From contig CAIMAO010000036.1 of the NCBI GenBank assembly GCA_903838985.1, forward strand, positions 1-52,708: DNA of 52,708 nt, written 5' to 3'. This DNA comes from an uncultured bacterium. Lineage in GTDB: Bacteria; Patescibacteriota; Minisyncoccia; Phycocordibacterales; UBA9973. A program made the position numbers and the translations under genes. The notes beneath the pieces were generated by a model. That model was not told the origin of the DNA, did not search any database, and saw only the letters and a list, made by a program, of their open reading frames with translations. This document shows positions 18,940 through 32,098 of this stretch, one piece after another (position 1 is the first letter of the stretch; each line of letters starts with the position of its first letter).

Positions 18940-20517
18940 ATGTCAAACAACAACCGTAAACAACTCCATGAAAGACTTTGGTCCGCAGCAATACAGCTTC
19001 GAGCAAATTCTAGTCTCAAGCTTAATGAAATGTCAGAGCCTATTCTGGGTTTAATTTTTCTAAAATTCGCTGATGTACGATTCAAGCAAGCACAAAGAGA
19101 AATAGAAACTGATAGAAAAAATGCATCTGGAAGACAAGCTCCAGTCACGCCTGATCACTATAAATCAAAAGGTGTTTTGTTTTTGCCTGAAATATCTATT
19201 TACTCATATCTTATGAGTCTTCCAGAGAGTAAAAACATTGGCAAAGCTATAAATGATGCAATGAAAGAAATTGAAGCAAAGAATACTGACCTCTCTGGTG
19301 TATTACCACAAGACTATACCTCTCTTCATAAGACTCCGGGAGAAAATAGCAAAATACTTATTGCTCTTCTAAAAAACTTCAATCAAATTCCGGACGACAT
19401 AGAGGGCGATGCTTTTGGAGAAATTTATGAATTCTTTCTTGGTGAGTTCGCACGTTCCGAAGGTGCTAAAGGTGGAGAGTTCTTTACGCCACCATCTATA
19501 GTAAAATTATTAGTAGAAGTCATTGAACCCTACAATGGAAAGATTTTTGATCCTGCCTGCGGTAGCGGTGGCATGTTCGTGCAATCTGCAAATTTCGTAA
19601 AATCACATTCTCAAAACAAAACACAAATAATGAATGAAGTGGCTTTATATGGTCATGAGAAAGTAAGTAGCAATATTCGTACAGCAAAAATGAACTTGGC
19701 TATTCATGGCCTTTCTGGAAAAATAGCAGAAGCTAATTCTTTTTATGAAGATCCATTTAAAAGTGTAGGAAAATTCTCGTATGTTCTGGCGAACCCCCCA
19801 TTCAATGTAAAAGGCAAAGATAAACATGGCCAAATAGTAATCGATCCAGCACGTATCAAGGGTGATCCACGCTTTTCTCTTGGACTACCTATCACAGGCA
19901 AAGGTGAAATTTCAAATGCCAATTATCTTTGGATGCAAATATTCATGAGTGCTTTAGATTCAAAAGGTAGAGCAGGTTTTGTCATGGCAAACTCAGCCAG
20001 TGATGCTGGTAATGCGGAAAAAGAAATCCGCAGAAAGATGATTGATGCAGGAATGGTAGATGTGATTATTTCTGTAGGCAATAATATGTTTATGAATGCG
20101 ACTCTTTCCTGTACGCTATGGTTTTTTGATAAAAGAAAAGTAGGTACTAATAGACAAAACAAAATTCTTTTTATAAATGTTCAGGATATTTTTACAGAGA
20201 TTGATAAAGCTCATAATGAGTGGACTCCGGAGCAAATACAAGAAATTGCTTCTATTGTTCGTAGATATCGGGAGGAAAAAGGCGAAGAAAAATACAAAGA
20301 CATAAAAGGCAGATGTAAAATGGCAACTCTAAAAGAAATAGAAGCCAATGATTATTCTCTCAATCCTGGACGTTATGTTGAGATTATAGAAAAAGAAATG
20401 AGTGATGTTGATTTTGATGAACGAATGAAAGAGTTGATGGATGAATTTACTGGTCTGACTACCGAAGCGCATAAACTAGAAAAGAAAATCACAAATGATT
20501 GGAAAACTATTTTATAA
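18940..20517 (+). CDS. hsdM: Type I restriction-modification system methyltransferase subunit HsdM
   Basis: GEFFTPPSIVKLLVEVIEP, FDPACGSGGMFVQ, YVLANPPFNVKG. Confidence 0.97.
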   Translation: MSNNNRKQLHERLWSAAIQLRANSSLKLNEMSEPILGLIFLKFADVRFKQAQREIETDRKNASGRQAPVTPDHYKSKGVLFLPEISIYSYLMSLPESKNIGKAINDAMKEIEAKNTDLSGVLPQDYTSLHKTPGENSKILIALLKNFNQIPDDIEGDAFGEIYEFFLGEFARSEGAKGGEFFTPPSIVKLLVEVIEPYNGKIFDPACGSGGMFVQSANFVKSHSQNKTQIMNEVALYGHEKVSSNIRTAKMNLAIHGLSGKIAEANSFYEDPFKSVGKFSYVLANPPFNVKGKDKHGQIVIDPARIKGDPRFSLGLPITGKGEISNANYLWMQIFMSALDSKGRAGFVMANSASDAGNAEKEIRRKMIDAGMVDVIISVGNNMFMNATLSCTLWFFDKRKVGTNRQNKILFINVQDIFTEIDKAHNEWTPEQIQEIASIVRRYREEKGEEKYKDIKGRCKMATLKEIEANDYSLNPGRYVEIIEKEMSDVDFDERMKELMDEFTGLTTEAHKLEKKITNDWKTIL

Positions 20518-20519
20518 TT

Positions 20520-21698
20520 ATGCAAAAAGTAGCATTTAAAACTGAAAAAGTTAAGAACCTACTTGAAAAAGTTAAAGGTCAAAGAAAAGTTCCAAAAGGT
20601 TCTTATTTTGAACTTGGAAAATATAAAATTGTTGATCAAGGAGAGGGTTTTATAAATGGATACACTAATGATGAATCACTTTTATATAAAGGTCCGATGC
20701 CAGTAGTGGTATTTGGTGATCATACTTGTAGACTAAAGTTTTTAAAACATTCATTTTGTTTAGGAGCAGACGGAACACAATTAATGTTTACAAAAAAACT
20801 TAATCAAACATATTTTTATTATGCACTTAAAAGTTTGGATTTTAAAATAAGTGCCTATCAAAGACATTATAAATTAATAAAAGAGAAATCAATTTTATAT
20901 CCAGAAAATAAAGAAACTCAAACTCGTATTGCATCTGTGCTTTCTTCCTATGACGATCTGATTGAAAAAAACGAAAAGCGAATCAAGATATTGGGAGAAA
21001 TGGCTCAACTTCTTTATATGGAGTGGTTTGTAAAATTTAAATTCCCAGGATACGAAAAGGTTAAAATGGTTGATAGTGGCACTGACTACGGGATGATACC
21101 AGTAGGATGGAAAGTGGTAGAGATGCGTTCAGTTGCAAAAATTATTGATTGTTTGCATACAAAAAAACCAAAACAAATTGAAACTGGGAGAAACTTATTT
21201 TTACAACTAGAAAATATTTTAGATAATGGAATGATTAATTTTTCTTCAACTTATTACATAAGTGACGAAGATTATAAGAAATGGACAAGTAATATCGAAT
21301 TACGAGAGGGTGATTGTGTTGTTACTAATGTAGGTCGCATTGCAGCTTCAGCTCAAATACCTAATGGTGTAATCGCAGCTGCAGGTAGAAACATGACTGT
21401 TATACGTCCAGAAAAAATACCAGCTAGTTTTCTAATCCAGTATTTACACTCTAGACATATGGAAAAAGAAGTATCTAGAAAAACTGACGCAGGAGCAATA
21501 ATGGGAAGTTTGAATGTTAAAAATATTTACTTACTTAAGGTATTAATTCCTGATAATTCTCTACTTGAAAATTATTCAAATTTAGTATCTATATGGAGAA
21601 ATGAAGCAAACACTCTTCATAAAGATAATTTTATCTTATCCCAAACCCGAGACCTTTTAATTCCACAATTAGTCACTGGAAAACGAGAATTGAAGTAA
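20520..21698 (+). CDS. hsdS: Type I restriction-modification specificity subunit HsdS
   Basis: Two TRD halves, ENKETQTRIASVLSSYDDLIEKNEKRIKILGEMAQLLYMEWF, DLLIPQLVTGKREL; start moved to ATG 20520. Confidence 0.93.
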   Translation: MQKVAFKTEKVKNLLEKVKGQRKVPKGSYFELGKYKIVDQGEGFINGYTNDESLLYKGPMPVVVFGDHTCRLKFLKHSFCLGADGTQLMFTKKLNQTYFYYALKSLDFKISAYQRHYKLIKEKSILYPENKETQTRIASVLSSYDDLIEKNEKRIKILGEMAQLLYMEWFVKFKFPGYEKVKMVDSGTDYGMIPVGWKVVEMRSVAKIIDCLHTKKPKQIETGRNLFLQLENILDNGMINFSSTYYISDEDYKKWTSNIELREGDCVVTNVGRIAASAQIPNGVIAAAGRNMTVIRPEKIPASFLIQYLHSRHMEKEVSRKTDAGAIMGSLNVKNIYLLKVLIPDNSLLENYSNLVSIWRNEANTLHKDNFILSQTRDLLIPQLVTGKRELK

Positions 21699-21706
21699 AA
21701 AATAAT

Positions 21707-22414
21707 ATGTCAAACAATAATTTTAAATGTAAATACTGTTCACACCATTCAACGATTACAAGTCCCGACCAATTTTCGCACTGGGAACAGATTGTTATAA
21801 ACGAATCAAAGCACGGATCAATTGGATTTCACTTGTATGCGATTACTTGTCCAAACCCCGATTGTAAAAAATTAACGCTAAAAGTATTATTGACCGACGC
21901 TGTTAGAAATCAAAGCACTGATTGGAATTGGAAAGCTAAACAAGTTCATCAGGAATGGCAATTACTTCCAGAATCAGAGGCGATAGTACTTCCTGAATAT
22001 ATACCGGAACCTGTACAGCAAGATTATTATGAAGCTTGTCGGATTAGGGATTTGAGTCCAAAGGCATCAGCAACTCTAGCTAGGAGATGTCTACAGGGAA
22101 TGATCAGAGATTTTTTCGGTATCAGTAAAAATAGATTAAAAGATGAGATTGATGCTATAGAAGATAAGGTAGAAGCCGATGTTTTCGCTGCTATTGATGC
22201 CGTACGAAATGTTGGAAATATTGGTGCTCACATGGAAAAAGACATCAACTTGATTATTGACGTAGAACCAAATGAAGAGAAATTGTTGATTGAATTGATC
22301 GAACAACTTGTTGAAGATTGGTATGTTTCCAGAAAAGGAAAACAAGATCGTCTATCAAAAATTACAGCACTCGCTAAATCAAAAGAAGATCAGAAGAAAA
22401 ATGAAGCAAATTAA
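21707..22414 (+). CDS. DUF4145-domain protein
   Basis: YYEACRIRDLSPKASATLARRCLQGMIRDFFG...AVRNVGNIGAH. Confidence 0.75.
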   Translation: MSNNNFKCKYCSHHSTITSPDQFSHWEQIVINESKHGSIGFHLYAITCPNPDCKKLTLKVLLTDAVRNQSTDWNWKAKQVHQEWQLLPESEAIVLPEYIPEPVQQDYYEACRIRDLSPKASATLARRCLQGMIRDFFGISKNRLKDEIDAIEDKVEADVFAAIDAVRNVGNIGAHMEKDINLIIDVEPNEEKLLIELIEQLVEDWYVSRKGKQDRLSKITALAKSKEDQKKNEAN

Positions 22415-22417
22415 TTT

Positions 22418-23566
22418 ATGAAAAATTTAAATAAAATACATATTAAGAATAAGACTTTTGAAATAGATGTATTTTTATTTGATGATGTTTTAAGTAATTT
22501 AAAAAATAAGAAAAATAAGAAAAGTGGAGAGACCCATTTATCATTATTGCAATCAGGTAGAATAGCTAGAGGACTTAAACACTTACTACAGACACTGCAA
22601 GCAAAGGATAAAAATAAAAAAATTGTTCTTTTCACAAATGAAACAAAAACTGACGATGATTGCTGGTATATAAATCTGGATGAATATTCTGGTATTGTTA
22701 CAGGAAGATTTTACTCATTATATAGAGAAACTGGATTAGATGGAGCTTCTTTTTATCTTAACCAAAAAATTCCTGAACATTTTGATTATATTAAAAATAA
22801 AGTTAGTGAAAATCAATTAAAAAAAATTGGTTCTAATTTACCACAAACATTAGAAGATTTAGAAAAAAAAGCTAAAAACAAAAAAGTAATTTTAAAACAT
22901 ACTGCTGAATCTATAAAAAATTTAAAAGATCAAAAAGATGAATTAGCAAAATCAATTAATGAATTGAAAACTATACAGAATGAATCTACCTCAGCTGTGA
23001 TGAGGGTAAGTCTCAATCAATTAGACGAAAGACTTACTGGAGAGAAAAAATACAAAGAAACGAGTGGAAAAAATAATTGGCAAGACTGGATAAAAGAAAA
23101 TTCATGGATGATGGGTGTTAATTATCAGGAACCTATTGAAAAAACAAAAATTGGGTTTGATAATATACCTGATTATATGTTTCCAACTATTGATGGGTTT
23201 TTAGATCTTGTTGAAATAAAACTGCCTCAACATGAATGTATAAAAGAAGATGAACATCACCCTGGTTCGTTTATGTGGTCAGGAAAAACAAGCGAAGCAA
23301 TCGGGCAAGTTGTAAATTATTTATCTGAAATAGACAAAAATCACTACCAAATACAGGAAAGGATAAAAGAAAAATATAATATAGATTTAATTGCTATAAA
23401 ACCTAGATCATATATTATTGTTGGAAATTCTAATAATTGGGAACCAAAATTTAAAAAAGCTCTTAGAAAGTTAAATTACTCTCTACACGGAATAGAAGTA
23501 CTAACATACTATGATCTAAAATTAAGAGGAGAACAGATAGTTAAAATTTACGAGAAAAAATCATGA
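22418..23566 (+). CDS. Shedu-like nuclease (DUF4263)
   Basis: NWQDWIKENSWMMGVNYQEPIEKTKIG..NIPDYMFPTIDGFLDLVEIKLP...EAIGQVVNYLSEIDKN, the DUF4263/SduA C-terminal pattern. Confidence 0.75.
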   Translation: MKNLNKIHIKNKTFEIDVFLFDDVLSNLKNKKNKKSGETHLSLLQSGRIARGLKHLLQTLQAKDKNKKIVLFTNETKTDDDCWYINLDEYSGIVTGRFYSLYRETGLDGASFYLNQKIPEHFDYIKNKVSENQLKKIGSNLPQTLEDLEKKAKNKKVILKHTAESIKNLKDQKDELAKSINELKTIQNESTSAVMRVSLNQLDERLTGEKKYKETSGKNNWQDWIKENSWMMGVNYQEPIEKTKIGFDNIPDYMFPTIDGFLDLVEIKLPQHECIKEDEHHPGSFMWSGKTSEAIGQVVNYLSEIDKNHYQIQERIKEKYNIDLIAIKPRSYIIVGNSNNWEPKFKKALRKLNYSLHGIEVLTYYDLKLRGEQIVKIYEKKS

Positions 23567-26500
23567 ACCCATTTAATGAAGACAATTTGGTAGAAAAGAC
23601 AGTCATCAAACTCATAAAGGAAATATGGGGTGATTCGAAGTGTCATATCAATGCATACAAAGACGAAGACGATTTGTTACTTGGACGAGACAATCAAGGT
23701 GAAGTGGTACTAAAAAAGTATTTATTGCCAGCATTACAGAAAATAAATCCCACCTTACCGGATGATGCACTAGCGCAAGCGATTGATGCTATTACTCGCG
23801 ATAGATCCAATTTGAGCTTAGTAAAAGCCAATCAAGAGGTTTATAAGCTCTTGCGTGATGGTGTAAATGTAAATGTTATACAAAGTAACGGAGATACGAC
23901 AAGCGAACGTGCGCGATTCTTTGATTTTGAAAAAGTAGAAAATAATGATTTTTTAATAGTGTCCCAATTGTGGGTAGTTGGAGAAATGTATCCTCGTCGC
24001 CCAGATATAGTGCTTTTTGTGAATGGTATACCTATTGTTTTATTTGAACTAAAAGCTTCACACAAAAGTTTAGTGGATGCATATCACGATAATTTGCGAG
24101 ATTATAAAGACACAATACCAAAACTGTTTTGGTATAACATGGGAATTATTATTAGCAATGGAATAGAAAACAAATTCGGCTCACTGACTGCTCCATTTGA
24201 ATTTTTTAATGAATGGAAGAAAATTGAAAAAGAAGAAGACAAGCCAAAAACTCATTTATCTACAATCCTTCATGGAATATGCAACAAAACACGACTACTG
24301 GATATTTTTGAAAACTTTATTTTATTTGAAGAATCAAAAGGTGGAATAAAAAAGATTGTTCCACGATACTTCCAATATCTAGGTGTAAATCTTGCTTTTA
24401 ACAATGTAGTGCGTCGCAAAGACTTGGATGGAAAGCTCGGTGTTTTTTGGCATACACAAGGCTCGGGCAAATCGTACTCTATGGTATGGCTCTCACAAAA
24501 AGTCTTGCGTAAAGTTACCGGTAATTTTACTTTCGTAATTGTGACAGATAGGACACAGCTAGATGGGCAAGCATATGACAACTTTGCCAATGTTGGAGTC
24601 ATCAACGAGACAGAGGTCCATGCTGAAAGCATTTCACATCTAAAAGAATTATTAGCACAAGATCATCGTCAGATTTTTACTACTATTCAAAAGTTTCAAG
24701 ATATTTCCGGTCCTATTTCAGAGCGTGAAGATATAATTGTGATGACCGATGAAGCACATAGAACACAATATGACCGTATGGCTTTGAATATGCGCAAAGC
24801 TTTACCAAAAGCATCGTTTATTGGATTCACCGGTACACCCCTTATGGCAGATGGTGAAGCTGAAACAGTAAAAACTTTTGGTACTTATGTATCAAAATAT
24901 AATTTCAGCGATTCAGTGCGTGATGGTGCTACTGTGCCCTTGTATTATGAAAATCGAGTGCCACGACTAAAAAATGTTAATGCCGATCTTGAGCAACAAC
25001 TGGGGCAATTGATGGATAAATATGATCTTGATGAAGATGAAGAAGAAAAATTGGAACGGGAGTATTCTAATTTTTATGAAATTATTACCCGAGAAGACAG
25101 ACTTGATACTATCGCTCGTGACATTGTGGAGCATTATGTAGGGCGAGGTTATGATGGAAAGGCAATGGTAGTTTCTATTGATAAGAAAACTACTTTCAGA
25201 ATGTATGACAAAGTAAAAAAAGAATGGGACCGTTATATAGCAAAACTCCGAATGGATCTTTCTCGTACCACAAACGAATACGAACATGAAAAGATTTTAG
25301 TAAAATTAGAACAACACGAAAAAGTAGATATGGCAGTAATGGTGAGCTTGGGTGGTAATCAAAATGAAATTGCTGATATGGCAGAATTCGGAATTGATGT
25401 ATTACCAATTCGTGAAAGAATTATTAAAGGAAATTTAGAAGAAGAATTCAAAAAGCCAAACAGCAACCTACGTATTATTTTTGTGTGTGCCATGTGGATG
25501 ACCGGCTTTGATGTGCCTAATCTTTCTACTTTATATTTAGACAAGCCATTAAAAAATCATACTTTAATGCAAACTATTGCTCGCGCAAACCGTGTAGCTG
25601 ACGAAGGCAAGAAGAATGGGTTAATTGTAGATTACATCGGTGTGTTCAAGAACATTGAGCGTGCCTTAGCATTATATGCGGCCAATGGAGTAGATGAAGA
25701 CGATATAATCAAAAGCAAAGACGAGCTTTTGAATGATTTAAAACACTCACTCAAAAAAGTAAAAGAATTTTTGAAAGTTGAAGAGATAGAATTAGATCCT
25801 CTACTCGAAGCTCCAAGTGAACAAAAATTATTACTCTTAGAAAAATATGCCAACACAATAATAGACCAGCAAGAAAAGAAAAAGGAGTTTTTAAATCTTG
25901 CAAGCGATTTACAAGGTGTTTATCGTTCAGTACTACCCGATCCAAATGCAGAAGATTACTACAAAGAAGTGACAGCTATCCGTGTATTAGCTTCACGTAT
26001 TCGTGATGTAGGGTCACAAAGCATAGATGTTTCTCAAGTAAAAAAAGATTTGGAAGATTTGCTCGATAAGTCAATTCAGACCGGTGAATATATCATTTCT
26101 GTACATAAAAAGATAAAAGACTTGAGCGTCCTTGATGCTGATGCATTGCATACTTTTTTTGCAGGTTTAGACAATAAAAATCTACAAGTAGAAGCAATGT
26201 CGGCTGAACTTGAACAAAAAATAACGGAAATGGTAAAGAGAAACAAAAAGCGCGCAAAATTTATGGAAAGACTTGTGTCGCTGTTACAAGAATATAATAC
26301 TGGTGCTCACGACGTGGACCAGCTATTTGATGACCTTGTTTCGCTTGCAAAAGATCTGAGTGAAGAAGAGCAAAGATCGGTAAAAGAGAATTTGAGTGAA
26401 GACGAATTAGCAATTTTTGACTTGTTAGTGAAAGAAAATTTGAATCCAGAAGAAGTGGCCAGTATTAAAGGGGCAACACACGAATTACTAATAAACCTTA

Positions 26501-26694
26501 AACCATTACTTGTACCGCACTGGAGGGACTTTGAAACAAACCGTGCTGGAGTAAAGATCGCTATATCAGATTTATTATTTACAAAATTACCAGAGCCAAC
26601 TTATACAGAAAAAGAATGTGAGCTAAAAGGATTTGAAATTTATAATTTTGTTTATGAACATTTCCAAGACGTAGGTAGATTGGATTATGCTTAA
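23563..26694 (+). CDS. hsdR: Type I restriction endonuclease subunit HsdR
   Basis: PD-(D/E)XK N-terminus (RRPDIVLFVNGIPIVLFELK), Walker A FWHTQGSGKSYSM, DEAH (IVMTDEAHRTQ), helicase motifs. Confidence 0.97.
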   Translation: MNPFNEDNLVEKTVIKLIKEIWGDSKCHINAYKDEDDLLLGRDNQGEVVLKKYLLPALQKINPTLPDDALAQAIDAITRDRSNLSLVKANQEVYKLLRDGVNVNVIQSNGDTTSERARFFDFEKVENNDFLIVSQLWVVGEMYPRRPDIVLFVNGIPIVLFELKASHKSLVDAYHDNLRDYKDTIPKLFWYNMGIIISNGIENKFGSLTAPFEFFNEWKKIEKEEDKPKTHLSTILHGICNKTRLLDIFENFILFEESKGGIKKIVPRYFQYLGVNLAFNNVVRRKDLDGKLGVFWHTQGSGKSYSMVWLSQKVLRKVTGNFTFVIVTDRTQLDGQAYDNFANVGVINETEVHAESISHLKELLAQDHRQIFTTIQKFQDISGPISEREDIIVMTDEAHRTQYDRMALNMRKALPKASFIGFTGTPLMADGEAETVKTFGTYVSKYNFSDSVRDGATVPLYYENRVPRLKNVNADLEQQLGQLMDKYDLDEDEEEKLEREYSNFYEIITREDRLDTIARDIVEHYVGRGYDGKAMVVSIDKKTTFRMYDKVKKEWDRYIAKLRMDLSRTTNEYEHEKILVKLEQHEKVDMAVMVSLGGNQNEIADMAEFGIDVLPIRERIIKGNLEEEFKKPNSNLRIIFVCAMWMTGFDVPNLSTLYLDKPLKNHTLMQTIARANRVADEGKKNGLIVDYIGVFKNIERALALYAANGVDEDDIIKSKDELLNDLKHSLKKVKEFLKVEEIELDPLLEAPSEQKLLLLEKYANTIIDQQEKKKEFLNLASDLQGVYRSVLPDPNAEDYYKEVTAIRVLASRIRDVGSQSIDVSQVKKDLEDLLDKSIQTGEYIISVHKKIKDLSVLDADALHTFFAGLDNKNLQVEAMSAELEQKITEMVKRNKKRAKFMERLVSLLQEYNTGAHDVDQLFDDLVSLAKDLSEEEQRSVKENLSEDELAIFDLLVKENLNPEEVASIKGATHELLINLKPLLVPHWRDFETNRAGVKIAISDLLFTKLPEPTYTEKECELKGFEIYNFVYEHFQDVGRLDYA

Positions 26695-27049: not shown

Positions 27050-27805
27050 ATGTCTGAATACTACAAACCAAATAGAGGATCAGCTTGGAATTATGGAGGC
27101 AAACAATGGAAACTGAGTCGTTCCAAAATTGATTTGTTTTTACAGTGCCCTCGATGTTTTTATATAGACAACAAACTAGGTACAAAGCGTGTACCAGGGT
27201 TTCCTTTTAATATAAACACTGCCGTTGATACATTGTTAAAAAAAGAATTTGATATTCATCGTGCAAAGGGAGAACAACACCCGTTACAGAAAGAATACAA
27301 GATAGATGCTAAGCCTGCACCTCATGAAGAACTAGATGAGTGGAGGAGAAATTTTGGAGGTATCAGACACGAACATGAAGCAACTGGATTGATAGTCACT
27401 GGTGCAATTGATGACTTATGGATAAATAGCAAAGGAGAATATATTGTTGTGGATTATAAAGCAACTGCTGGTGAAAATGCTATTAAAGAACTTAGCGACG
27501 AAAAAGAACATCACAAGGGATATAAGCGACAAATGGAAGTTTATCAATGGCTACTTCGGCAGAATGGTTTGAAAGTTTCTGATATTGGGTATTTTGTTTA
27601 TTGTACAGGAACAACAGATCGAGAGGCTTTTGATAAAAAAATTGATTTTGATGTAAATCTTATTGAATATAAAGGAAAGGATTCCTGGGTAGAAAAAACT
27701 TTATTCAAAATTAAAGAATGTTTAGAGAAAGACACTATCCCAAAGACAGGAAAAGACTGTGATTGGTGTGCCTATTGGAACGCTAGAAAGGAATTGGAAA
27801 AATAA
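27050..27805 (+). CDS. PD-(D/E)XK (Cas4/RecB-like) nuclease with probable Fe-S Cys cluster
   Basis: SRSKIDLFLQCPRCFYID, GAIDDLWIN...YIVVDYKATA, GYKRQMEVYQWLL, CDWCAYW. Confidence 0.85.
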   Translation: MSEYYKPNRGSAWNYGGKQWKLSRSKIDLFLQCPRCFYIDNKLGTKRVPGFPFNINTAVDTLLKKEFDIHRAKGEQHPLQKEYKIDAKPAPHEELDEWRRNFGGIRHEHEATGLIVTGAIDDLWINSKGEYIVVDYKATAGENAIKELSDEKEHHKGYKRQMEVYQWLLRQNGLKVSDIGYFVYCTGTTDREAFDKKIDFDVNLIEYKGKDSWVEKTLFKIKECLEKDTIPKTGKDCDWCAYWNARKELEK

Positions 27806-28431: not shown

Positions 28432-28563
28432 ATGGATGAAGAAACTTTTGAAATAGCTAAAGATAATGATTTAAGCTTTGAAGAGGCAGAACAGCTTCAA
28501 GAAGTTATTGACGATACAGGACTTGATGCGGAAGATGCATTAGAAATTTCGCAAGATTTATAA
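28432..28563 (+). CDS. 43-aa very acidic microprotein, copy 1
   Basis: MDEETFEIAKDNDLSFEEAEQLQEVIDDTGLDAEDALEISQDL; paralogue at 32549. Confidence 0.7.
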   Translation: MDEETFEIAKDNDLSFEEAEQLQEVIDDTGLDAEDALEISQDL

Positions 28564-28610: not shown

Positions 28611-28840
28611 TAGGATGGCAGAACCTCTAAAAAAGAGGTATAATTTCTTTACAAATTAATAGACGACCTAACCCCTTAGAATTTCTAAGGATATGGTCGA
28701 AAGTCCTATCAAGCGTAAAAACCCCGTCATGGGTTCGCTTGATAGGCCATATTGGGAAACCAATATGAGAGGCTTCGGTCTCTGCCCGTGATGGGATTTT
28801 GCGTCTCTATCGGTAATTATTAAGACCTATCAAGTACCTT
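28611..28840 (+). ncRNA. Strongly structured non-coding RNA or leader upstream of the 28841 ORF
   Basis: Hairpins ACCTCT/AGAGGT, CCTTAG/CTAAGG, 11-bp CCTATCAAGCG/CGCTTGATAGG, CATATTGG-GAAA-CCAATATG, AGAGGC-TTCG-GTCTCT; candidate promoter TTGATA-N18-TATGAT at 28575-28604. Confidence 0.6.
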
Positions 28841-29305
28841 ATGAACCCAGCAGAAGAAATAGTAAAATTTTGGTTACAAAATAAAGGGTGTTTTATGCAG
28901 TCTTCTATTCGCTTACCCAAAAACAAGGAGATAGACATTTTAGCTGTTGATGAGAATGGAAATAAAAGTCACATAGAGGTATCCGTTTCTGTGAGAATGG
29001 CTAATTACACATTAAATGCAACACAAAAGGCTAGAGAAGTTTATGAACATAAATTTAACTCTGTAAAAGAGGAGGTGAAAAATAGAATTGGCAAAAAGTA
29101 CCAAAAGAAATTCATTGCTGGTAATGTATCGTATAAAAATAAAGATATAACATTAGAGTTTACGGAGGAATGTAAAAAATTAGATATTGAAGTGATTCTT
29201 TTTAAAAACATTCTCAATGAAATTAGACCTTTATTGGGAACAAATTCTCATTTGAATTCAACGATTAAAGCTGTTCAACTAACAGAAGTTTTTGAAAGAA
29301 AATAA
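28841..29305 (+). CDS. PD-(D/E)XK restriction-endonuclease-like protein
   Basis: AEEIVKFWLQNKGC...RLPKNKEIDILAVDENGNKSHIEVSVSV gives the E-ID-(x)n-EV pattern. Confidence 0.5.
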   Translation: MNPAEEIVKFWLQNKGCFMQSSIRLPKNKEIDILAVDENGNKSHIEVSVSVRMANYTLNATQKAREVYEHKFNSVKEEVKNRIGKKYQKKFIAGNVSYKNKDITLEFTEECKKLDIEVILFKNILNEIRPLLGTNSHLNSTIKAVQLTEVFERK

Positions 29306-29306
29306 A

Positions 29307-30371
29307 TTATTCAAACACATTTCGATTTGAATTATTAATGACGATCGTTTTTAAGTTAGTATCGTTAACAGTTGGTACGCTTATATGATATCCAAGTAAT
29401 CCAGCATGGATTCTATCTGCTTTTTCTTTTTTCTGCCTTATCTTTTTGTTTTGTTTTTTTACTTCTATATTTTCCGAATTATCATAATTCTTAATAATAT
29501 TAATAACTCTATTTTCTCCAATAGTTAATAAATATTCTCGTTTCCAAACAGCCTCGTCTGATATTGTTTTCTTAAGTTTTCCGATATTCGCCATTGTTTT
29601 AAACTTTTCTAGCCACATAATTTTTTCATTATCATCCAACAATGGATATGCTCTAAAAATACCATTCATCTTTTTTTCTTTAATTTGTTCTTTGAGTTTT
29701 ACAAGCAATGAATCTCCACTAATTAGATTTCCTAGGACAATTATTCTAGTATCTTCATTACCTAATGGAAGGATTTCACTCACAAAGCGGTTGTACATAT
29801 TTTCACTTATCTTTTTATCTTCAAATGAAAAACTATCTTCTAGATCATCACAGATAATTAGATCTGGTCTGTTAGCTCCGTATTTAAAACCACGTACACT
29901 TTGTTCTCGCGAAACACAAACAATCTTTGACCCATGATATTCAAGTTCCAAGGATAATTTTTTCCAAACTGATTCATTCCCATGAAAAGGTCCGAAGTCT
30001 TCTTTTAGTAAAGGGTTGTGTTCCAGTTCTTCTTTGATGTTTGCAAAGTGAGTTTTGGCTTGCTCTTGGGTTTGCCCAACAATAACAATAAATTTATTTT
30101 GTCTGGTACCTAAAATTGACCACAGAGTGTTTGTAGTATTCATTATTGTAGATTTTCCAGAATTTCTGAAAGCCATAATTGTTATTAATTTGTTTCTTGA
30201 ATCACGCAACAATTTAAACATATCTTTCTGAAAAGGTGCTAAAGGAAACTCCATATACTTACGCATATATATTAGGAAAAACCATAACGGATCTTCGTAT
30301 GCCAATTTTTGTCTCAATTTTTTATTCTGAACAATTAAGTCTAATTCTTTTTTACTTATTTCTTTTCCCAT
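29307..30371 (-). CDS. Terminase large-subunit-like ATPase (no evident nuclease domain)
   Basis: PLAPFQKDMFKLLRDSRN, Walker A-like MAFRNSGKSTIMNT, Walker B LIICDDLEDSFS, TRIIVLGNLISGDSL. Confidence 0.8.
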   Translation of the reverse strand: MGKEISKKELDLIVQNKKLRQKLAYEDPLWFFLIYMRKYMEFPLAPFQKDMFKLLRDSRNKLITIMAFRNSGKSTIMNTTNTLWSILGTRQNKFIVIVGQTQEQAKTHFANIKEELEHNPLLKEDFGPFHGNESVWKKLSLELEYHGSKIVCVSREQSVRGFKYGANRPDLIICDDLEDSFSFEDKKISENMYNRFVSEILPLGNEDTRIIVLGNLISGDSLLVKLKEQIKEKKMNGIFRAYPLLDDNEKIMWLEKFKTMANIGKLKKTISDEAVWKREYLLTIGENRVINIIKNYDNSENIEVKKQNKKIRQKKEKADRIHAGLLGYHISVPTVNDTNLKTIVINNSNRNVFE

Positions 30372-30777
30372 AATTTTTTATACCTCCAGTAGAAAAAGTC
30401 AAAGCTTTCCTAAAGAGCTTTTCTTCTCGAGGATTTAGATCAACATCAATAGGTCTAACTGTGTCAATTTTATACTTACTACCATAGATTGGGTGGTGAT
30501 GTTTTAACCATGTGGTAATAGCTGGCATTTTCTTTTCTCTAATAAGCTGGATAATTTGCGATTCACTCATGTCATTGATAAATTCAAAACCTTGAGCAAG
30601 TGAAGCTTCAGTTTGTCGAAGAAAATTAATATCTTCTTTTCTCCAACGGTAATATGTAGCTCTGCTAACACCAGCTTTCTTGCAAGCTACTTGGATAATC
30701 GGCATCTCCTTGAGAGTTTCAAGGAGTGCCAATTTATCTTTTTCAGTTCTCTCTTCAATAGTTGGATCAGTTTCCAT
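30352..30777 (-). CDS. Small-terminase-like helix-turn-helix protein
   Basis: MPIIQVACKKAGVSRATYYRWRKEDINF; overlaps the TerL-like gene. Confidence 0.65.
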   Translation of the reverse strand: METDPTIEERTEKDKLALLETLKEMPIIQVACKKAGVSRATYYRWRKEDINFLRQTEASLAQGFEFINDMSESQIIQLIREKKMPAITTWLKHHHPIYGSKYKIDTVRPIDVDLNPREEKLFRKALTFSTGGIKNYGKRNK

Positions 30778-32098
30778 ATATTTTCTTTGCAGTTAATCCT
30801 GTAAATTTTTCCCATCTTTTTAGAATAACTTCTGTGTAGACTGGAGACTTTTCCATAAGATAACAACGGCGATGCATCTTAATTGAGGCAATTAAAGTGG
30901 ATCCTGAGCCTCCAAATGGCTCAACAATGAGATCATCTCGTTTGGTGAGTACTTTGATATATGGGATGAGAATTTCAAGGGGTTTGGTGCCGAAAATAAT
31001 TGCTTGACCAGAACTTTTTTCATCGGATGCTTTAAATTCGATAAAGTCAGTTGGACAATACTTTTTTCCTTTACCATAGCTTTCCCAATGTGGACGACCT
31101 GAAGTTGCAAATAAAGCTGTTTCATAATCTGTCTGCAATAACTCATCTGATTCAGGTTCTTCGTTCAATTCGATCTTTCCCGAAGTACCAAGCATAGCAA
31201 AATCATATTTGTTGAAGAATTTATATTTTGCTGAGAAACCTTGAACACGATTAGGTAGATGCCACACAACTGTGTTTCTATACTTCCAGTGTTTTTCCAA
31301 TTCATTCCAAATAGTACGAAGATTTTTAGGATTTTCGTATATCATGATTGAAAAATCTTCTTTCTGAATTTTTGCAATATTTGCCATCCATAATTCAGTA
31401 AAGTTATCAGGTAAAGATTCTGTACCTAAATAAATACGATCACGCTTTAATCCAAATCCTTCAGTTACTTTTCCATTTTTTTTCTTTTTACCGTTAAGGT
31501 AATCAAGAATGTAAGGCGGATCAGTTAGACACATATCTGCTTTTTCATTTTCCATTAGTTTAATGATGTCTGTTTCGGACATTGAGTCTCCACACATCAC
31601 TCTTGACCCATCAAGTTCATAAACATCGCCCTCTTTCACATTTATCTGATCTATCTTCAACTTTTTCAATTCGTTGTTGAGATCAAATTCTTCTGGTGTA
31701 GGTTCTAACTCAAAAATTGAATCAAGGTCTTCGCTAGAAAAACCAATATCTGATAAGAATGTCTCATCAAACGTTTTAAGAATATCCCAATCAAATTCGC
31801 CAGTGTTTTTGTTTAAACGAATATTCAATTCTTTCTCTTTTTCAATATCGGGAATATTAATATAGACTACTGGTACATTTTCTATACCTAGTTCTTTTAT
31901 TACCGACAACCTAAAGTGTCCACCGATAACAATATTTTTTCTTTCTTCTGCAGAGTTTACTAGAAGCGGATCAACGATTCCATATTTTCTAATACTTTCT
32001 TTTAATTGATTTTCTGCTTCTTTATCCCACTTGCGGGGATTGTAATCTGAGGCTTGGAGATCGTTTACAGATACGTACACAATATTTAATTTATCCAT
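30767..32098 (-). CDS. ParB-like N-terminal domain fused to a DNA adenine/cytosine-N4 methyltransferase
   Basis: VNDLQASDYNPRKW...IVIGGHFRLSVIKELG and CLTDPPYILDY, VEPFGGSGSTLIA. Confidence 0.93.
   Translation of the reverse strand: MDKLNIVYVSVNDLQASDYNPRKWDKEAENQLKESIRKYGIVDPLLVNSAEERKNIVIGGHFRLSVIKELGIENVPVVYINIPDIEKEKELNIRLNKNTGEFDWDILKTFDETFLSDIGFSSEDLDSIFELEPTPEEFDLNNELKKLKIDQINVKEGDVYELDGSRVMCGDSMSETDIIKLMENEKADMCLTDPPYILDYLNGKKKKNGKVTEGFGLKRDRIYLGTESLPDNFTELWMANIAKIQKEDFSIMIYENPKNLRTIWNELEKHWKYRNTVVWHLPNRVQGFSAKYKFFNKYDFAMLGTSGKIELNEEPESDELLQTDYETALFATSGRPHWESYGKGKKYCPTDFIEFKASDEKSSGQAIIFGTKPLEILIPYIKVLTKRDDLIVEPFGGSGSTLIASIKMHRRCYLMEKSPVYTEVILKRWEKFTGLTAKKIYGN

Follow-up and report, generated by a model that had tools for sequence, protein, structure and literature searches.

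The window analysed here, that is, the whole stretch of 52,708 nucleotides, contains about 230 nt (28611-28840) crowded with hairpins and directly followed by a small gene. This raises the question of what the stretch is, and of whether it acts by itself or on the gene that it precedes. An earlier note, made from the sequence alone, had proposed a novel riboregulator, an RNA component of a defence system, or a packaging or replication origin.

The stretch rich in hairpins belongs to the LOOT RNA family

All the helices named in the earlier note are present where it had placed them (Table 1), and its view that the structure is unusually stable held up: the 230 nt fold with −79 kcal/mol, whereas dinucleotide-shuffled sequences give −52.3 ± 4.3 (z = −6.3), and none of 200 shuffles folded as well. 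Comparison with Rfam covariance models returned a full-length match (model positions 1–121 of 121) to RF03000, LOOT RNA, at 28665-28783 on the forward strand, scoring 89.3 bits (gathering score, 46.4). The stretch is thus a copy of a catalogued RNA and a further member of a known family. This supports the idea of a structured riboregulator, but the match, whose score is almost double the gathering score, rules out a novel family; the earlier note had itself named a match to a known Rfam family as what would speak against its claim. The group I intron model (RF00028) reached 15.2 bits, below its gathering score of 50.

Rfam 14 shows LOOT as an example in a figure (PMC7779021), Rfam 15 gives a consensus that R-scape has refined (PMC11701678), and 28 cross-covariations have been noted for it (PMC7657543); Rfam assigns it the type 'Gene; sRNA'. 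In the literature searched, which does not include the original LOOT description, we found only the name and the structure and no functional study. The window copy agrees with RF03000 in its full-length match and in the same five helices. Beyond that description, it shows a leader preceded by a promoter, a long-range helix that covaries and lies 3' of the model, a copy of a P3 strand close to the start codon, which defines a subclass, and placement in cis to a gene. The cis-leader role, the helix beyond the model end and the start-region mimic are unreported in that same literature, and we do not claim priority for them.

Table 1. Features of the LOOT locus and of its surroundings in the window
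Feature	Position	Strand	Sequence	Remarks
HsdM	18940-20517			
HsdS	20499-21698			
DUF4145	21707-22414			
SduA	22418-23566			
HsdR	23563-26694			
Promoter-like site	28615-28644	+	ATGGCA 28615-28620; TATAAT 28639-28644	weak −35 box; 18-nt spacer
Inverted repeat	28623-28639		ACCTCT/AGAGGT	overlaps promoter
Leader	28651-28660	+	ACAAATTAAT	family consensus ACAAYTTAAT; probable transcript 5' end
LOOT core (P1, P2, P3, P4, P5)	28665-28783	+		RF03000 match; helices covary
GACC/GGTC helix	28665-28668 with 28695-28698	+	GACC/GGTC	seen in sequence
CCTTAG/CTAAGG helix	28674-28679 with 28685-28690	+	CCTTAG/CTAAGG	seen in sequence
P1/P2 internal loop	28667-28672 / 28692-28696	+	CCUAAC / UAUGG	resembles 11-nt GAAA-tetraloop receptor
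P3	28705-28715 (5' strand) / 28736-28746 (3' strand)	+	CCTATCAAGCG / CGCTTGATAGG	covariation
Strand A, inside P3	28718-28734	+	CCCGTCATGGGT 28723-28734; AAAA 28718-28721	pairs with strand B
P4 hairpin	28748-28767; GAAA 28756-28759	+	CATATTGG-GAAA-CCAATATG	candidate partner of receptor-like loop
P5 hairpin	28768-28783	+	AGAGGC-TTCG-GTCTCT	UUCG loop in window; GNRA-type in many copies
Strand B	28784-28800	+	GCCCGTGATGGG 28784-28795; TTTT 28797-28800	3' of Rfam model
P3 5'-strand copy	28826-28834	+	CCTATCAAG	6 nt before ATG at 28841; also at 28705
Gene in cis (154-aa ORF)	28841-29305	+		no Pfam, PHROGs or PADLOC match

LOOT copies lie in tight linkage upstream of genes

Two sets of copies were compared: 114 from CPR/Patescibacteria genomes, and an independent, non-overlapping set of 98, all of the A.C receptor subtype (see below), from a pattern scan. 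In 105 of the 114 copies, LOOT is followed at no more than 150 nt by a same-strand ORF of at least 50 codons that begins with ATG, against 40/114 in a mirror-image divergent control, and the distance from LOOT to the ATG is 40–80 nt in 86/114 (median about 55 nt). Likewise, 87/93 copies of the independent set precede a same-strand ATG-initiated ORF by at most 150 nt (median 53.5 nt; divergent control, 33/90). The 5' leader location, one of the criteria for a riboswitch, was thus found in the large majority of copies from both sets. Upstream of LOOT, TATAAT-like boxes peak 6–7 nt before a conserved ACAA (43 of 60 match at least five of six positions), and the leader consensus is matched in at least nine of ten positions by 71/113 copies. 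The ACCTCT/AGAGGT repeat is probably promoter-region DNA that lies outside the LOOT transcript, because it overlaps the TATAAT box and is located upstream of the probable start at ACAA (28651); similar inverted repeats occur at the equivalent position in the copies from genomes G363 and G164. Shine-Dalgarno-like motifs are equally rare in front of LOOT genes (14/102) and of their neighbours (56/498), and we rejected the idea that LOOT substitutes for them.

The Rfam type would agree with a free-standing small RNA that acts in trans, made from its own promoter, terminated by a downstream helix (A:B, see below) together with the U-rich stretch after it, and pairing with other mRNAs. The promoter-like box and leader fit such an RNA, as does a conserved CUUUKUGUU after A:B that resembles a terminator tail; however, this U stretch contains a conserved G, and reads UUUUGCG in the window. 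A free-standing RNA gene would be independent of the downstream ORF, whereas more than 90% of the copies are tightly spaced from a same-strand gene in cis, and the upstream position of LOOT argues against 'sRNA' as the whole story. Moreover, a search of the window's genome for CCTATCAAG-N0-8-ATG returned the LOOT locus itself and no other site, so that this P3 sequence stands before an ATG in cis only. We consider this trans-acting alternative improbable, although LOOT may have a dual role as small RNA and leader.

The helices covary and include a long-range pseudoknot

In an alignment of 47 copies that extended over 34 nt of downstream sequence (A1), 40 of the 45 pairs have changed on both sides, and the score of the whole structure exceeded those of 500/500 shuffles and of all slid registers; the covariation that the earlier note had suggested looking for is therefore present. 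Double-sided changes occur in nine of ten P3 pairs, and P4 is 99.2% paired, with an invariant GAAA cap. The alignment also contains a helix that ends beyond the Rfam model, formed by strand A, within P3, and strand B, just 3' of P5. Its 12 pairs are formed in 96.4% of cells, with double changes in 10/12, and one of its column pairs reads CG 16, GC 12, AU 10, UG 8 and GU 1 times, with zero exceptions. Strand A pairs better with its own strand B than with swapped ones (14.1 vs 8.9), and the independent set agrees (27.3 vs 15.0, p = 2e-40). The window's helix, including the additional AAAA/UUUU, has −23.4 kcal/mol. A:B forms a pseudoknot with P3 and is incompatible with the apical hairpin that Rfam draws inside P3.

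In a subset of copies, strand B also pairs with a strand C located further downstream (15.0 vs 12.5, p = 2e-8; replicated with p = 1e-6), while pairing of strand A with strand C gave no signal in either copy set. These data bear on transcription attenuation, whereby A:B and the U stretch would halt RNA polymerase and the P3 apical hairpin, which contains strand A, would be the antiterminator. The near-universal A:B helix, the U-rich sequence that follows it and the replicated B:C pairing favour attenuation. Yet B:C would hardly act as a classical antiterminator, because C lies 3' of the U-rich stretch, too late to prevent termination; besides, the U stretch is imperfect, and attenuation leaves the start-codon repeat described below unexplained. 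We hold attenuation to be fairly unlikely for LOOT as a whole, but it is the main rival for the approximately 78% of copies that do not contain this repeat.

P4 may dock into a receptor-like internal loop

Across copies, the internal loop between P1 and P2 reads CCUAA(A/C)...(C/U)AUGG. Columns 5, 7 and 35 of A1 are invariant or nearly so, and columns 8 and 34 exchange A.C for C.U without ever forming a canonical pair, which gives the two receptor subtypes. GAAA tetraloop/11-nt receptor pairs are known from group I introns and other RNAs, and the CCUAAC/UAUGG loop together with the GAAA-capped P4 resembles a pair of this kind. LOOT shares with those RNAs an internal loop of the form CCUAAN/NAUGG and a conserved hairpin with a GAAA cap, but the classic receptor has G.U where LOOT has A.C or C.U. 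From this resemblance we predict that the GAAA of P4 probably docks into the receptor-like loop. Conserved unpaired bases that might resemble a ligand pocket are few.

A subclass of LOOT repeats a P3 strand next to the start codon

In 24 of 109 copies (ca. 22%), 9 nt or more from the 5' strand of P3 recur downstream, when 0.2 are expected from swapped partners, and so they do in 6/91 copies of the independent set (0.23 expected). In the listed cases the repeat lies about 36–54 nt 3' of LOOT and typically ends 2–6 nt before the ATG. Its frequency depends on the receptor subtype, with 14 of 26 copies for C.U, the class of the window, against 6/58 for A.C (A-type vs C-type overall, p = 1e-5). The identity is limited to the P3 strand and adjoining A's.

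Because one P3 strand is repeated before the ATG, the other strand can pair either within P3, which closes it, or with the repeat, which masks the start region. The duplex between the P3 3' strand and the start region is much more stable with the copy's own partner than with swapped ones (−18.2 vs −6.9 kcal/mol), and its mean energy (−17.3 kcal/mol) is nearly equal to that of P3 itself (−18.1). For instance, orthologous genes in G251 and G363, with 67% protein identity, have differing P3s, each identical to its own start region; three strands that have changed in step are hard to explain without selection for the alternative pairing. Sequence comparison thus supports competing pairings of P3 and the start region in one subclass. 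Masking of the start codon cannot be the general mechanism, because ca. 78% of the copies lack a P3-like repeat there, and in this non-repeat class no LOOT segment paired convincingly with the copy's own start region (best p = 0.03 in eight tests).

Two copies from G012 (L054 and L055) and one from G120 (L053) bear the repeat and are followed by short ORFs that resemble gene remnants, the next long ORF beginning about 145–175 nt from LOOT.

LOOT precedes diverse genes, many for membrane proteins

The genes behind LOOT are diverse and do not belong to a single common family. A membrane segment is predicted in 66 of 102 downstream proteins (65%), against 121/498 neighbouring ORFs (24%), and for genes of at least 100 codons the enrichment of N-terminal membrane segments is highly significant (p = 8e-9). 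Recurrent families include N6/N4 DNA methylases (five), staphylococcal-nuclease-like proteins (four), zinc ribbons (about four), and trypsin-like and peptidoglycan-binding proteins. For one protein encoded behind LOOT, a zinc-ribbon membrane protein, many of the best homologues from other families of the phylum likewise have LOOT directly 5' (G152, G251, G113, G311, G012 twice and G032), while those of G042, G063, G117 and G320 do not; this pattern fits a regulon, or linked horizontal transfer.

The 154-aa product of the window's gene had a single weak match in 384 genomes. With almost no homologues, it was not possible to obtain a deep alignment for its fold, and a single-sequence AF2 model (pLDDT 44) was too poor to judge it. 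The motif EIDILAV...HIEVSV, on which a PD-(D/E)XK-like label can be based, is indeed in this ORF, but no Pfam, PHROGs or PADLOC match confirmed the label.

Further upstream, the window contains a type I restriction cluster (18940-26694) with the Shedu gene SduA between the S and R subunits, followed by a Cas4/PD-(D/E)XK-like gene (27050-27805); a 43-aa acidic ORF (MDEETFEIAKDNDLSF...) is found at 28434-28562 (+), directly 5' of the LOOT promoter. On the other side, and convergent with the LOOT gene, there is a phage packaging remnant at 29307-32098 (−), with a short TerL-like gene (354 aa), a TerS/HTH-like gene and a ParB-N6 methylase fusion.

Such surroundings, with HsdMSR and Shedu upstream and a short TerL/TerS pair downstream, together with the five methylase genes, are what would suggest that LOOT belongs to a defence system as its RNA component, or that it serves a phage in packaging or replication. 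Nevertheless, the genes behind LOOT share no family and encode membrane or secreted proteins more than defence proteins, which weakens the reading as a defence RNA. Also, LOOT copies precede unrelated genes in cellular genomes, and no similar DNA was found, at blastn sensitivity, in 50,697 phage records or in plasmid records, at odds with a packaging or replication origin. We regard a defence or phage element as extremely unlikely.

LOOT is widespread but patchy in CPR bacteria

LOOT is present in 84 of 384 genomes sampled from the window's phylum. The window's genome (751 kb in 46 contigs) contains two further copies, and the maximum of seven was found in the 700-kb genome of G363, from the same genus, another genome of which has none. 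One 3.7-kb contig of G097 has LOOT at both ends. The pattern scan of 85,462 species genomes retrieved 117 stretches; it indicates range and not abundance, because the pattern recognises one LOOT subtype only (17 of the 114 known copies). The titled records listed are nearly all from CPR/Patescibacteria, among them Parcubacteria, Microgenomates groups, Saccharibacteria and WWE3. Exceptional taxon labels are few and include Gastranaerophilales (a 3.5-kb contig) and Bathyarchaeota (a 950-base contig), both likely misbinned, as well as TM6, for a record that equals in length (853,053 bases) G218, a genome assigned to the window's phylum.

A patchy distribution, with as many as seven copies in 700 kb, could be expected if LOOT were mobile, either as an element or as a promoter-leader cassette, and came to stand before accessory genes as it spread. 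Likewise, three identical copies (L042, L043 and L044) lie at contig ends in G097, as repeats that broke the assembly, and G113 contains tandem LOOT-ORF units 376 nt apart (L045; contig C3, 12613-13386), whose small ORFs are 69% identical, apparent evidence of a recent duplication of LOOT with its gene. Against mobility, copies within one genome differ strongly and no common ORF or transposase accompanies them; additionally, since the identity between P3 and the start region is confined to the paired strand, pairing fits better than target-site duplication. We therefore find mobility highly unlikely.

A model for LOOT as a cis-acting leader

In all, we consider it rather probable that the gene at 28841 has 28651-28840 as its 5' leader, and that this leader, built on LOOT, functions as a cis-acting, riboswitch-like control element. 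Comparison among copies argues for the cis position, the family, the long-range helix and the start-region repeat; we infer the direction of control, with closed P3 as the ON state, the docking of GAAA and the existence of a signal.

In the proposed model, transcription would begin at ACAA (28651) and the RNA would fold into P1/P2, P3, P4 and P5, with the GAAA of P4 probably docking into the CCUAAC/UAUGG loop and strand A pairing with strand B. In the window's class, the P3 3' strand would have two equivalent partners, the P3 5' strand or its identical copy before the ATG. Closing of P3 would leave the start region free and the gene translatable, while with P3 open the 3' strand would mask the start region. 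The conserved core would decide between both states, and the balance might be set by a small molecule, an ion, an RNA-binding protein or the state of the ribosome. The signal would be general, given that many genes without relation to each other share this core, and their families are too diverse to point to any one signal. Like translational riboswitches with sequestered start regions, LOOT is a 5' leader with a compact conserved fold and two mutually exclusive pairings of one strand. It differs from them in that it has no known ligand or obvious pocket, that its switching sequence is variable, and that only about one fifth of the copies have a start-region partner.

More tentatively, LOOT could be an orphan riboswitch-like leader, widespread among CPR bacteria, which responds to one general signal and governs surface, secreted and DNA-modifying proteins as a regulon, with a subclass whose P3 mimics the start region and whose three strands coevolve. 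The assignment as a cis leader, the named competing helices and the list of genes make the role of LOOT testable. CPR bacteria are ultrasmall and live attached to other bacteria, and little is known of their gene regulation. The LOOT leader occurs in about one fifth of the CPR species sampled, and a common leader before many surface and secreted proteins would give a handle on regulation in these organisms.
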